A program made the position numbers and the translations under genes. Positions 29,600 to 44,730 of a stretch of 64,000 nt of DNA are shown here, one piece after another. The stretch comes from Gloeobacter morelensis MG652769 (GTDB lineage Bacteria; Cyanobacteriota; Cyanobacteriia; Gloeobacterales; Gloeobacteraceae), in assembly GCF_021018745.1 (NCBI RefSeq), contig NZ_CP063845.1, positions 4,092,001 through 4,156,000 on the forward strand. Reading direction: 5' to 3'. A model generated the notes under the pieces. It saw only the letters and a list, made by a program, of their open reading frames with translations, was not told the DNA's origin and made no database searches. Position 1 is the stretch's first letter. The number at the start of each line of letters is the position of its first letter.

Positions 29600-29605
29600 G
29601 TTGCC

Positions 29606-29645
29606 AAAAAAGGGGCGGGATGTTCGCTTCATCCCGCCCCTTTTT
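29606..29645. terminator. Bidirectional Rho-independent terminator
   Basis: The stem AAAAAGGGGCGGGATG pairs with CATCCCGCCCCTTTTT around a 7-nt loop. The A- and T-runs sit at the stem ends, so it can stop rbcR on the plus strand and the small secreted protein gene on the minus strand. Confidence 0.93.
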
Positions 29646-29677
29646 GGTGATATCGGTTTGGATGGGACTAACCCTGA

Positions 29678-40861: not shown

Positions 40862-41515
40862 TTAAAGCAAATATCGCTTGACTGAGTGCCCTTTCTTTGC
40901 GAAGCGGTTCTCTATCGCCTCCACGAGTGCTTTTTCTAGAGCAGATTCTTCAGTAAAGCTTTTTCCTCTCAGTTCATCGTACTTCAAATGTAGCCACTCG
41001 CCCTCAATAAGGTTCTGCTGGGGGCTGTACGGTGCGATAAAAAACATGTGCAACCCTTGCCTATGCCACAACCTCCAGTGCTTCTGGATTTTCTTGCTTT
41101 TGTGAATCGATGCATTGTCCTGAACGATCACGGTCGGCTGGCCCGTCGCCAGAAAATGTCTCCAGGCTTCCCGTGCCTCCTGCTCCATAATCTTCAGATA
41201 TTCCTCACTCGTAAAGTTCTTCTTGATCAGGGCATATTTGAAATCTTTGCTCGGTTCCCAAATACCCAAGATGCTCTGACGTTTCGCCGCTTCTTTGGGT
41301 TGCTTAATGTGCTTTTGCCGGCCAATCTTCATCCAGGTGTAGTTGACTGTGCTTTCCCCGTCTTTTCCCGTCTCATCCAGATACTTTAATCGGATGAAAC
41401 CATCTTCTGCCGACGCTTTGAGCTCGTCGAGCTGTTTTTGCCTCTCCTGCCGGAGCTTTGGATCCGCTCCACCAGGACTTTTGCGTGTGCGTTTCCAGAC
41501 GTAGCCATTTTTTTT
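40862..41515 (-). CDS. IS630 transposase, C-terminal catalytic part (orfB frame)
   Basis: This frame is entered by a -1 shift at the A8 tract (41508-41515) and is open for 218 codons including the stop. It supplies KNGYVWKRTRKSPGGADPK, the first catalytic Asp in LKYLDETGKDG, the second in VIVQDNASIHKSKKIQ and the Glu in NLIEGEWLHLKYDELRG, i.e. the DDE triad of IS630/Tc1 type. A shorter product could begin at the ATG at 41332 but would lack the first Asp. The element appears intact apart from needing the frameshift. Confidence 0.88.
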   Translation of the reverse strand, partial: KKNGYVWKRTRKSPGGADPKLRQERQKQLDELKASAEDGFIRLKYLDETGKDGESTVNYTWMKIGRQKHIKQPKEAAKRQSILGIWEPSKDFKYALIKKNFTSEEYLKIMEQEAREAWRHFLATGQPTVIVQDNASIHKSKKIQKHWRLWHRQGLHMFFIAPYSPQQNLIEGEWLHLKYDELRGKSFTEESALEKALVEAIENRFAKKGHSVKRYLL

Positions 41516-41904
41516 AGCGCCCTGCGCAGCGGCACCGCGGACATACTGACCCCGCGCTCCGCCAAAAGCAACTCGGACAACTGCCGAGCGTTGTACGTTT
41601 GCTCGTCTTCGAGAATGCGCTTCTCAAGACAGGCCAAGTCCTCTTGCGTGCATCTTGATTTCCCGCCACGACCGGGAGCTTCATAAAGACCTTCAATGCC
41701 ACCATCCCACCAACGCTGAAACGTCTCACGTATCGTCTGCTGATGGCAATGGAAGAATTCTGCGATGCGAGGTACCGTCCAATCTCTTGCGGACAATCTG
41801 AGGGCTTCAGCCCGCTGTCGAACCCGAGACGGTACCGTACTGTTCTGAGAAAGTGCGAGCAAGGCCAGGTCTTCATCGGCAGAGAGATGGATCTTATGAG
41901 GCAT
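41386..41904 (-). CDS. IS630 transposase, N-terminal DNA-binding part (orfA)
   Basis: 172 residues if read without shifting. The helix-turn-helix region is SVRQRAEALRLSARDW-like (SRVRQRAEALRLSARDWTVP) followed by RIAEFFHCHQQTIRETFQRW and LYEAPGRGGKSRCTQEDLAC. After ALKK the frame continues past an A8 run into a non-conserved tail (ATSGNAHAKVLVE). The useful product is the fusion with orfB of about 347 residues. Confidence 0.88.
   Translation of the reverse strand: MPHKIHLSADEDLALLALSQNSTVPSRVRQRAEALRLSARDWTVPRIAEFFHCHQQTIRETFQRWWDGGIEGLYEAPGRGGKSRCTQEDLACLEKRILEDEQTYNARQLSELLLAERGVSMSAVPLRRALKKMATSGNAHAKVLVERIQSSGRRGKNSSTSSKRRQKMVSSD
41508..41515 (-). promoter_or_regulatory. A8 slippery site for transposase frameshifting
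   Basis: On the minus strand the codons CTA AAA AAA ATG contain eight consecutive A. A -1 shift gives AAA AAA AAT GGC and joins orfA to the orfB catalytic frame exactly where IS630 proteins continue (KNGYVWKR). A-runs of this length permit ribosomal or transcriptional slippage. Confidence 0.75.
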
Positions 41905-42155: not shown

Positions 42156-43412
42156 ATGGGATTGAACGCGGTGCAGTTGGGCGAGCGCTTGCGGGTCGCG
42201 CGGGAGAGGCGTGGCTTGAGCCAGCAGGCTGTCGGTGATGTCCTGGGGTTACCACGCACGGCTGTAACCAACATGGAAACCGGCAAGCGGGCTGTCTCTA
42301 CGCTGGAACTCACGCGACTTGCCAAGATGTACGACCAGTCGGTGACTTTTTTCCTGATAGATCGGACGGACGAGGAAGATCTTGCCACAGTCCTGTTCCG
42401 TGTTGTGCCAGAATTTGCTGAGGACAGCCTTCTCAGACAGGCTGTCGAGCGCACCCTCGATCTTTGCCAAGAGGGTGTCGGCTTGCGGCGCCTGCTCCGC
42501 TACGAGCAAGAGGACACCCTGCCCAACTACGGCTTGCGGATGCACACCGCCGGTGAGGCTGTCTCCCAAGGTGTGTGGGCAGCCCAGGTAGAGCGGCAAC
42601 GGCTTGGATTGGGCAACGCGCCGGTTGCCGACATTGCCGAGTTGATTGCCGAGCAGGGCGTGTGGATAGCCGTTACCGAGTTGCCCGATTCGCTGTCGGG
42701 CCTGTACCTTCATCACGCATCCATCGGTCTTGCCATCCTGGTCAATGGCGCTCACCCCTTTGCCCGTAGGCGCTTTTCCTATGCGCACGAGTACGCCCAT
42801 GCATTGTTGGACCGCTCCTTAACCGTTCAGCCGACGCGCAAAGAAAATATCTCCGAACTGGTGGAAAAGCGGGCAAATGCCTTTGCCGCAGCATTCTTGA
42901 TGCCCGCAGAAGGTGTGACCGACATGCTGCACAGGTTTCACAAAGGGCATCCCAGTCGTTCGGCTCAGACGGTCTTCGACGCGGCAACCGGTGGGGTGAT
43001 GGAAGCAGAGATCCGACCCCGGCCGGGTACGCAGACCATCACCTTTCAAGACATCGCCGCCATTGCCCGTCACTTTCAGGTCAGCTACGAGGCTACCGCC
43101 TGGAGGCTCAGGAGCCTGGGCCACATTGGCGCTTCCGAGTGCAGTGCGCTCATTGAACAAAAGGACCACAGCAGGCGCTACATGCGCCTGCTCGGCTCGC
43201 CGGAAGAACTGACCGAAAGCCTGACCCACGCACCGGAAACGCCAAGTAGGCAACCCGCCGGTGAACAGTTGCGTCACCAATTGGCCCGGCTTGCTATCGA
43301 AGCGTACCGACAGGAGGAAATTTCTCGGGGCCGCCTTCAGGAACTGGCCCAGAAACTCGGCGTAGCTTCAGAAGAACTTCTCGATCTCGCCGAAGCGACC
43401 CGTGCGCATTGA
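42156..43412 (+). CDS. XRE regulator fused to ImmA/IrrE metallopeptidase
   Basis: 418 residues from the ATG at 42156; 37 further codons are open upstream but AT-rich and unconserved. Residues 8-60 are an XRE HTH (LRVARERRGLSQQAVGDVLG, LPRTAVTNMETGKRAVSTLE). Residues about 155-260 are the ImmA/IrrE zinc peptidase with FSYAHEYAHALLDR (HEYAH at 211-215) and KRANAFAAAFLMP. A further helical C-terminus follows. Such proteins cleave repressors to induce mobile elements or stress genes. It lies beside the IS630. Confidence 0.9.
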   Translation: MGLNAVQLGERLRVARERRGLSQQAVGDVLGLPRTAVTNMETGKRAVSTLELTRLAKMYDQSVTFFLIDRTDEEDLATVLFRVVPEFAEDSLLRQAVERTLDLCQEGVGLRRLLRYEQEDTLPNYGLRMHTAGEAVSQGVWAAQVERQRLGLGNAPVADIAELIAEQGVWIAVTELPDSLSGLYLHHASIGLAILVNGAHPFARRRFSYAHEYAHALLDRSLTVQPTRKENISELVEKRANAFAAAFLMPAEGVTDMLHRFHKGHPSRSAQTVFDAATGGVMEAEIRPRPGTQTITFQDIAAIARHFQVSYEATAWRLRSLGHIGASECSALIEQKDHSRRYMRLLGSPEELTESLTHAPETPSRQPAGEQLRHQLARLAIEAYRQEEISRGRLQELAQKLGVASEELLDLAEATRAH

Positions 43413-43689
43413 TATCGAATCTGCGTAGACTAAATCGGCCGCATTCCCAGAAATACTCCTTGGCGCAGACGCCACGCAAAGCTTCCACACACTGGAAAGC
43501 TCTGCCCATCCCACCCACACAGTCTCCTGCCCACCGAGCCCATAAGTCCGGGGGGTGTCGGGGGGGTGGCACCCCCGCGAGGCGGGGAGGGGGAGAGCGC
43601 GAGAGGGGCACCCGAAGGGGGTGCCGCCTCTCGCCCACCCGCTCTCGTGCAAAACCAAAAAGCCCCAGAAAGCCGCTTCAGAGCACCCC
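43413..43689. other. GC-rich intergenic region with strong inverted repeats
   Basis: 277 bp after the XRE-ImmA gene. No gene was recognised. It contains a run of G- and C-tracts (GGGGGGTGGCACCCCCG near 43561) and the long compound hairpin at 43593-43646. Confidence 0.5.
43593..43646. other. Long compound hairpin, possible structured RNA or repeat
   Basis: Three nested stems pair in order: GAGAGC (43593-43598) with GCTCTC (43641-43646), GCGAGAGG (43599-43606) with CCTCTCGC (43627-43634), and GGCACCC (43607-43613) with GGGTGCC (43619-43625). That is 21 base pairs with one bulged G and a 6-nt bulge. No T-run follows, so a plain terminator is unlikely. Confidence 0.5.
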
Positions 43690-44730
43690 TTAGACTACCG
43701 TCTGCGGAAGCCGAGGGCGAATCACCTGAGCGCTGAAATGCTCCATCTCCTCGCGCTGAGGGCTCATCTGCAACAGCAACAGATCCACGCCTGCATCAGC
43801 GAAGCGGTCAATCTGCTCGCTCACCTGCTCGGGCGTTCCGACCAGCCCCGTGCGCAGGCCGCGGTTGGAGACCGAATATTCTTCAATCGACATGCGCTGT
43901 TCCAGTTGAGTGCCGGATAGCCACTGCTGGTAGTTGGCAAAGCCCGCGGCCGATTGGCGCACATCGGTGATCCGCGCCAGCTCTGCCTGCGCTTCGCGCT
44001 CGGAATCTCGCACGATCGCGTAACCCGCCACCCCGAAAGTCATGGGAGGTAATCCCAACTTTTCGCGCCGGGCAGACATATCGGCAATCTTGGCTGCCAC
44101 CCGCTCGGGCGGATCGCCGTGCATCAAATAGGCGTCGCACTTGCGGGCAATCAAATCCTTGGCCGCCTCCGATTCACCCCCGGCATAGATCGTAGGACGA
44201 GGTCTGCAGACGGGTTTGGGTTGCAGGACGTTGTTCTCCACGCGGTAGTAGCGGCCCGAGTAGGAGAAGTGATCCTGACTCCAGGCACCGTCGACCACCT
44301 CTAGCCACTCGGCGGTGCGGGCGTAGCGGTCGTCATGCTGCTCGAAGTGCACGCCGTACATCTTCGCTTCGTCGGCCCACCAGGAGGAGACGACGTTGAG
44401 CGACAGCCGTCCGCTTGCAATCTGGTCGATGTTGGCCGCCTGTTTGGCAAGCAAAGCCGGCAGGTGAAAAGTCGGCCGCACCGCCACCATGATCTCCAGC
44501 CGCTCGGTCACCGCCGCGAGGGCTGCCGCCGTCGACCAGGCGTCCAGGGCCGGGGCGTCGATGCCCTTGATGTCGTTGAGATTCAGTTCGGCCACCAGCG
44601 TCAGATCGAAGCCGAGTCCCTCGCTGCGGCAGGCCAGATCCCGCACGTAGGGCCAGTCGGCTGTCATGTTCTCATCCTCGATGTTGCGCAGCCAGCCGCC
44701 GAAGACCGGCAGCCAGTAGCCGAAGCGCAT
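43690..44730 (-). CDS. LLM-class flavin-dependent monooxygenase, SfnG/SsuD-like
   Basis: 346 residues from the ATG at 44730. The start MRFGYWLPVFGGWLRNIEDE and the stretches GFDLTLVAELNLNDIKGIDA, MVAVRPTFHLPALLAKQAAN and GRLSLNVVSSWWADEAKMYG match FMNH2-dependent dimethylsulfone (SfnG) and alkanesulfonate monooxygenases. The Cys or His active pocket (YLMHGDPPERV, IYAGGESEAAKDL) is present. It needs a flavin reductase from elsewhere. It starts 4 bp after the ATP-grasp stop, so the two are cotranscribed. Confidence 0.85.
   Translation of the reverse strand: MRFGYWLPVFGGWLRNIEDENMTADWPYVRDLACRSEGLGFDLTLVAELNLNDIKGIDAPALDAWSTAAALAAVTERLEIMVAVRPTFHLPALLAKQAANIDQIASGRLSLNVVSSWWADEAKMYGVHFEQHDDRYARTAEWLEVVDGAWSQDHFSYSGRYYRVENNVLQPKPVCRPRPTIYAGGESEAAKDLIARKCDAYLMHGDPPERVAAKIADMSARREKLGLPPMTFGVAGYAIVRDSEREAQAELARITDVRQSAAGFANYQQWLSGTQLEQRMSIEEYSVSNRGLRTGLVGTPEQVSEQIDRFADAGVDLLLLQMSPQREEMEHFSAQVIRPRLPQTVV

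Follow-up and report, generated by a model that had tools for sequence, protein, structure and literature searches.

The most stable hairpin in the window, the 64,000-nucleotide stretch of the Gloeobacter morelensis MG652769 genome analysed here (contig NZ_CP063845.1, positions 4,092,001 to 4,156,000), lies within an insert that is probably a copy of a non-autonomous mobile element of the MITE type, some 260–350 bp long, with inverted ends and insertion at TA. The hairpin would then be explained as transposon-derived, and not as a private regulatory RNA.

Results

The strongest hairpin of the window

Folding assigns 21 pairs to the compound hairpin at 43593–43646 (plus strand), with 7 pairs in the inner, 8 in the middle and 6 in the outer stem. 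Its stability is −39.9 kcal/mol (z = −5.5), and none of 200 dinucleotide shuffles folded as well. This is exactly the 54-nt hairpin of 21 pairs that the preliminary description had reported as far more ordered than other gaps, and indeed none of 10,658 54-nt windows, sampled in steps of 6 bases, equalled it. Taken over all 166 nt, the region stands out less than the hairpin alone, both on the plus strand (z = −2.2, 2 of 200 shuffles as good) and on the minus strand (z = −1.4, 21 of 200). The G/C inverted repeats reported ahead of the hairpin correspond to a second hairpin region at 43555–43583, which is also present in the family described below.

As regards the extent of the hairpin, the inner and middle stems (43599–43634) are family-wide, but the outer stem GAGAGC/GCTCTC (43593–43598 with 43641–43646) is peculiar to the window copy: at least six of seven outer pairs are possible in 13 of 80 copies, compared with 16% of control stretches. 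The interval originally noted, 43560–43650, does hold a real structure but is too narrow, and we widen it to 43412–43674. By eye, no T-run follows the G+C stem on either strand, as already noted from the sequence, and an intrinsic terminator was rejected on this ground. The second most stable 54-nt stretch sampled, at window 29604–29646, combines a hairpin with an A-run and a T-run and has, by eye, the look of an intrinsic terminator.

The second hairpin folds stably throughout the family, as might be expected of an independent non-coding RNA gene, be it a small RNA or riboswitch-like. We consider such a gene very unlikely, given that the 54-nt hairpin folds almost equally on both strands and that dozens of similar copies are found at unrelated loci. 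Rfam recognised two tRNAs alone in the window, and no Rfam family reached its gathering score for the element region; a permissive search of the region gave one match, MIR164, at E = 0.33.

A repeat family shared with two relatives

A 221-base query located the element at at least 40 places in the host genome (G000), the query itself included, the other 39 being 80–94% identical. The 16-base core GAGAGCGCGAGAGGGG, at up to one mismatch, has 49 matches in the host, 45 in G001 and 32 in G002, both of them relatives from the same genus, and no match in any of G003, G004, G005 and G007. The further genomic copies that the preliminary description had envisaged for a mobile repeat are thus present, and a single, unconserved copy, which it had set against its own proposal, is contradicted. 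Since the reversed string resembles the core, a reversed-pattern control (34, 22, 17 and 1 matches in G000, G001, G002 and G003, respectively) provides no clean background, and these matches are probably mostly the same elements. In a BLAST survey the repeat was present in 3 of 20 genomes, host included. An exact 26-base pattern, scanned against 84,980 species genomes, hit six contigs, all from the MAG 'Aphanocapsa lilacina HA4352-LM1', a genome that probably has 32 core matches; the exact scan is therefore insensitive and a weak test of absence elsewhere, and records near the host genome may be missing from it. Plasmid records and phage records gave no match to the element.

In an alignment of 79 copies from G000 and G001, conservation is highest in a core of about 90 bp, and the flanking arms are variable. 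In the window copy, the GC-rich core (AGTCC...CCTCTCG) occupies 43545–43633 and the left arm leading up to it 43461–43544, both on the plus strand.

Two host copies, L010 and L011 (G000:C1:4452302 and 3138516), each belong to a 560-bp unit that comprises the core and a short downstream reading frame and is 99.5% identical between the two places; L010 keeps the full left end and L011 begins within the arm. Among the core matches of G000–G002, seven pairs lie less than 2 kb apart, all in inverted orientation: C1:1863969/1865772, 2235526/2237335 and 4920263/134 (across the record ends) in G000, C1:259908/261575 and 1148222/1150162 in G001, and C42:1898/3280 and C79:4987/6755 in G002. Some of these loci are common to several genomes, so that fewer than seven of the cases are independent.

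Two backbones with inverted ends and a duplicated TA

The family has two backbones, A (TATCGAATCCG) and B (TAGAGCRGG), which differ in their ends and share one GC-rich two-hairpin core. A-type ends read TATCGAATCCGCGT ... CACCCGGATTCGATA and B-type ends TAGAGCAGGTGTCAGG ... CAACTGAAAACCGCTCTA, with the terminal inverted repeats TATCGAATCCG / CGGATTCGATA for A and GAGCRGGTGTCAGG / CAACTGAAAACCGCTC for B. At up to two mismatches, the A left end TATCGAATCTGCGT was recognised in six of 80 copies (L009, L010, L019, L024, L030 and L095) and the inverted A right end CACCCGGATTCGATA in another set of six (L010, L011, L015, L021, L030 and L045), with both ends in two copies. The B left end was found at up to three mismatches in 18 of 80 copies, 17 of which belong to the 59 copies typed B; the B right end was found in 12 copies and both B ends in six. 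L095 and L024 have mixed ends, A on the left and B on the right. Of the 80 copies, 31 have one or both ends in recognisable form, as compared with none of 79 control stretches for any of the ends, and the boundaries of the other 49 copies, which have no end within the limits used, rest on alignment. There are also short elements that have B ends left and right but no core (L129, 98 bp; L138; and L140, with one base changed), and L135 (G000:C1:3458824–3458867) apparently consists of two short coreless B-type elements back to back.

The only clean empty site found is that of the B-type copy L026. The site is filled in G000 and empty in G001 (GTCATGCTCTAATAG) and G003 (GTCATGCTCTAATAC), each of which has one TA. 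The filled site reads GTCATGCTTTA, then 348 bp, then TAATAG, and has two TA; the insert, with its inverted ends GAGCRGGTGTCAGG...CAACTGAAAACCGCTC, thus lies between duplicated TA, although this one site would also fit a longer duplication, GCTCTA, if one mismatch is allowed. In G002 this place is filled as well, with the element divided between two contigs. For the A-type copy L010, the flanks of which lie apart in G001, a clean empty site could not be found. L092 did not provide a second one either, with G002 also filled and the G000 flanks 0.9 Mb apart. The flanks of this G001 copy map to G000:C1:2680022–2680603 and 3577607–3577981, with the break near the element, and their separation may reflect recombination between copies. 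At 348 bp (L026) or 263 bp (window), the element is too short for a transposase gene.

No clean insertion at the window locus

The insert in the window is 263 bp long (43412–43674, plus strand) and aligns over its full length with L030 at 79% identity. It starts with the A-type left terminal sequence TATCGAATCTGCGT at 43413–43426, the end matched in the six copies named above; L030 continues for about another 50 bp before it reaches its right end, so the window copy is an A-type element whose right end is missing. Both flanks match G001, up to 43405 on the left and from 43675 on the right, and the insert has no counterpart there. In the same interval, following the XRE-ImmA gene, G001 has an intact 200-codon ORF (L119:960–1562). 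In the window genome this ORF survives only as a stretch like its 3' end (43675–43736, plus strand), which means that, at the element, roughly 0.5 kb present in the relatives is lacking. G002 keeps the same 3'-end stretch, next to a gene that by eye is transposase-like. As an insertion, the window copy is thus not clean; the deletion may have accompanied the insertion or followed it, and we infer, rather than observe, the sequence of events at this locus.

The two genes next to the copy are convergent and face it with their 3' ends; Pfam confirmed them as HTH + Peptidase_M78 (XRE-ImmA) and Bac_luciferase. The 200-codon ORF of G001, which corresponds in position to window 43406–43736, looks PIN-like by motif reading; Pfam and PDB searches gave no support for a PIN-domain protein. 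By its position alone, it could possibly be a toxin–antitoxin partner.

The partner transposase

A TA-targeting transposase presumably moves the element in trans, and its class would be the IS630/Tc1-mariner type or the IS427 branch of IS5, which we take to be the candidates. PF13358 has nine equal-scoring matches in G000. No inward-facing pair of matching ends was present at 28 PF13358 and 13 PF13340 loci, where only single weak end matches were seen (e.g. at L144, L157 and L193), and the four Y1 loci were likewise devoid of such a pair. The window itself contains an IS630-like transposase in two frames (HTH, DDE_3) at 40862–41904; its DDE part lies about 2.1 kb upstream of the element, and no pair of matching ends was seen there. 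Composite transposons between close inverted copies were considered and rejected, the ORFs within L025, L089 and L050 including no obvious transposase by eye. L131, L132 and L140 had resembled IS ends on account of the IS30-like ORFs (named by eye) carried by L132; this candidate was also dropped, as the part these loci have in common is only about 100 bp.

Many extragenic GC-rich imperfect palindromes, together with four Y1_Tnp matches in G000, are what one would look for in a REP/REPIN-type element mobilised by a hairpin-recognising Y1 (RAYT) transposase. Of the REP-like mobile repeat suggested in the preliminary description, mobility is borne out by the 49 core matches and the copies in two relatives, but the likeness to REP is not, in view of the length of about 260–350 bp, the inverted ends and TA duplication, and the failure of the copies to track Y1/RAYT genes. 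PF01797 matches number 4, 0, 0 and 2 in G000, G001, G002 and G003, against 49, 45, 32 and 0 core matches, a distribution that rules out a RAYT link. Inverted ends and a duplicated TA do not suit such an element either, and point to a MITE instead of a RAYT-linked REP; by eye, the 79-copy consensus has neither GTAG nor CGTC at the hairpin foot. We therefore regard a REP/RAYT origin as extremely improbable, and retain the MITE-type element as our reading.

Gene context and pairing of the core

A different proposal is that the core serves the host as a two-way transcription barrier or a stabiliser of mRNA 3' ends, dispersed by an old transposon and since kept by selection. We judge it unlikely, and the evidence bearing on it is of two kinds. 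The first is gene context. When genes were called with a codon-usage model trained on the window, none of 80 copies overlapped one by more than 60 bp, and among the 64 copies with scorable neighbours, 40 lie between convergent, 21 between co-oriented and 3 between divergent genes; a further 16 copies are not scorable, and copies at shared loci are not independent. These numbers suit a barrier or stabiliser. However, when the same caller was applied to control gaps of 60 bp or longer, convergent neighbours flanked 4 of the 24 within the window and 20 of the 43 from the other loci retrieved, which are transposon-rich and come from several genomes; with controls this uneven, the size of the convergent bias is uncertain, and harmless insertions are also expected between 3' ends. 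The lack of a T-run likewise speaks against a barrier or stabiliser.

The second kind of evidence is pairing, which was counted for a two-hairpin structure over 63 distinct core sequences with 500 shuffles. Of 1,663 cells 96.8% are paired, versus 44–62% in slid versions, over which the counted structure is favoured by having been drawn from single-sequence folds. Hairpin region one (43555–43583), a 13-pair helix, has 94.6% of its cells paired and two pairs changed on both sides; the GCGAGGC variant of the window copy breaks some of its pairs. In hairpin two (43599–43634), 98.6% of the cells are paired, and of its 14 counted pairs 10 are invariant and one (A-T to C-G) has changed on both sides. 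Two-sidedly changed cells number 36, as against 14.4 (sd 2.2) in the shuffles, which are uncorrected for relatedness, and the covariation score is above all 500 of them. Changes stand out most clearly at a C-G/G-C pair of hairpin one and at the A-T/C-G pair in the inner stem of hairpin two. On the other side, pairs with two-sided change number 3 where 2.1 are expected (97 of 500 shuffles as high), further pair types 11 versus 10.5 (257 of 500), and the RNAalifold covariation term is only −0.11, with a first helix that differs. Covariance in relatives, proposed earlier as a check, thus gives a divided answer: three measures exceed all shuffles and two do not, and the evidence for selected pairing is mixed. 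Furthermore, conversion between copies could move both arms of a stem together, which weakens the pairing as an argument for a host-useful barrier.

Arms follow descent and cores hardly do

Many copies are old: 18 of 40 G000 copies examined have a same-locus copy in G001, a persistence that would also fit a barrier or stabiliser kept by selection. Most of the 18 same-locus pairs were established by two flanks, L043/L116 by one flank; L032/L086 are in opposite orientation. L032 and L086 represent one locus by both flanks (G000 and G001), in which the element is reversed.

Across the 18 partner pairs, arm identity is 0.853, compared with 0.741 for non-partners, whereas core identity is 0.916 compared with 0.906, a small difference that none of 2000 shuffles reached. 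The contrast between arm and core is the same for all 19 pairs (arm 0.842/0.739, core 0.914/0.904) and for the 16 two-flank collinear pairs (arm 0.864/0.744, core 0.923/0.911), and it persists with gaps ignored. The true partner ranked first of 18 for 4 of 18 copies by core and for 9 of 18 by arm. Of five discrete core markers, none was shared between partners significantly more often than between shuffled pairs (best marker: 101 of 2000 shuffles as high). The arms, including the left arm of the window copy, follow descent; the cores hardly do.

That the cores have nearly lost the descent signal kept by the arms suggests exchange between copies, i.e. gene conversion, as the simplest reading of these sequence patterns. 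A small core descent signal remains, which counts against exchange, and the G000 cores are no more alike within their genome: core likeness is 0.946 within G001, 0.890 within G000 and 0.906 between the two, and we rejected the idea that cores are homogenised within each genome, which holds for G001 and not for G000. Repeated mutation of a slippery G-rich core could instead have produced the pattern.

The inner-stem pair illustrates the difference between the genomes. Of 39 readable G000 copies, 13 have C-G, 22 have A-T and 4 are mixed; all 39 readable G001 copies have A-T, as do 13 of the 14 G002 copies examined, the other being mixed. C-G is thus seen in 13 of 39 G000 copies and in none of the relatives' copies examined. 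One could picture the two-hairpin core as a separately selected unit housed in two MITE backbones, gene-converted among about fifty gene boundaries as the lineage's two-way transcription or topology boundary, with the inner-stem C-G allele now spreading; we offer this as a speculation, and an unlikely one.

Discussion

In this study we have traced the window's strongest hairpin to a dispersed repeat that is short and lacks a transposase gene, has terminal inverted repeats, duplicates TA (at one B-type site) and occurs in many dispersed copies, all of them properties by which MITEs are recognised. In the mechanism that we propose, the element, bounded by inverted terminal repeats and with no recognised gene inside, would insert at TA; the A and B backbones would each carry the one GC-rich two-hairpin core, and cores would be exchanged between copies by gene conversion. 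The element would have no essential role in the host.

The family is old, with loci common to two species of a deep-branching cyanobacterial genus, and its cores, hardly tracking descent, make it a usable system for the study of exchange between dispersed bacterial repeats. At the window locus, the element occupies a position at which a relative carries an additional ORF next to the XRE-ImmA gene.

PMC3733652 does not mention Gloeobacter. The family is absent from the titles and abstract openings listed in our searches of the literature on Gloeobacter repeats, cyanobacterial MITEs, MITE conversion and small dispersed repeats. While this kind of element is well known, the family itself seems to be undescribed, though an earlier description may be contained in Elhai et al. 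2008 (PMC2527708), which, going by its title, reportedly deals with very small multi-copy mobile repeats of cyanobacteria.

Among known systems, the element is similar to the prokaryotic MITEs (Nezha of Anabaena, NEMIS, ERIC and RUP), which are likewise short and non-coding, with terminal inverted repeats, target duplication, many dispersed copies and strong predicted folding. Some of these features, and those of REP sequences, are general background. In contrast to REP sequences of 20–40 bp, the Gloeobacter unit is several times longer, has inverted ends and a TA duplication, and is unlinked to Y1 transposases. It does share with the REP/BIME/REPIN and RAYT systems the character of extragenic GC-rich palindromes in many copies, as described in part in PMC3733652; some of the MITE features are given there and in the review PMC10969869, according to which MITEs are typically AT-rich. 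Unlike such MITEs, the Gloeobacter element has a very GC-rich core, which is found in two backbones that differ in their ends and in which descent can hardly be followed.
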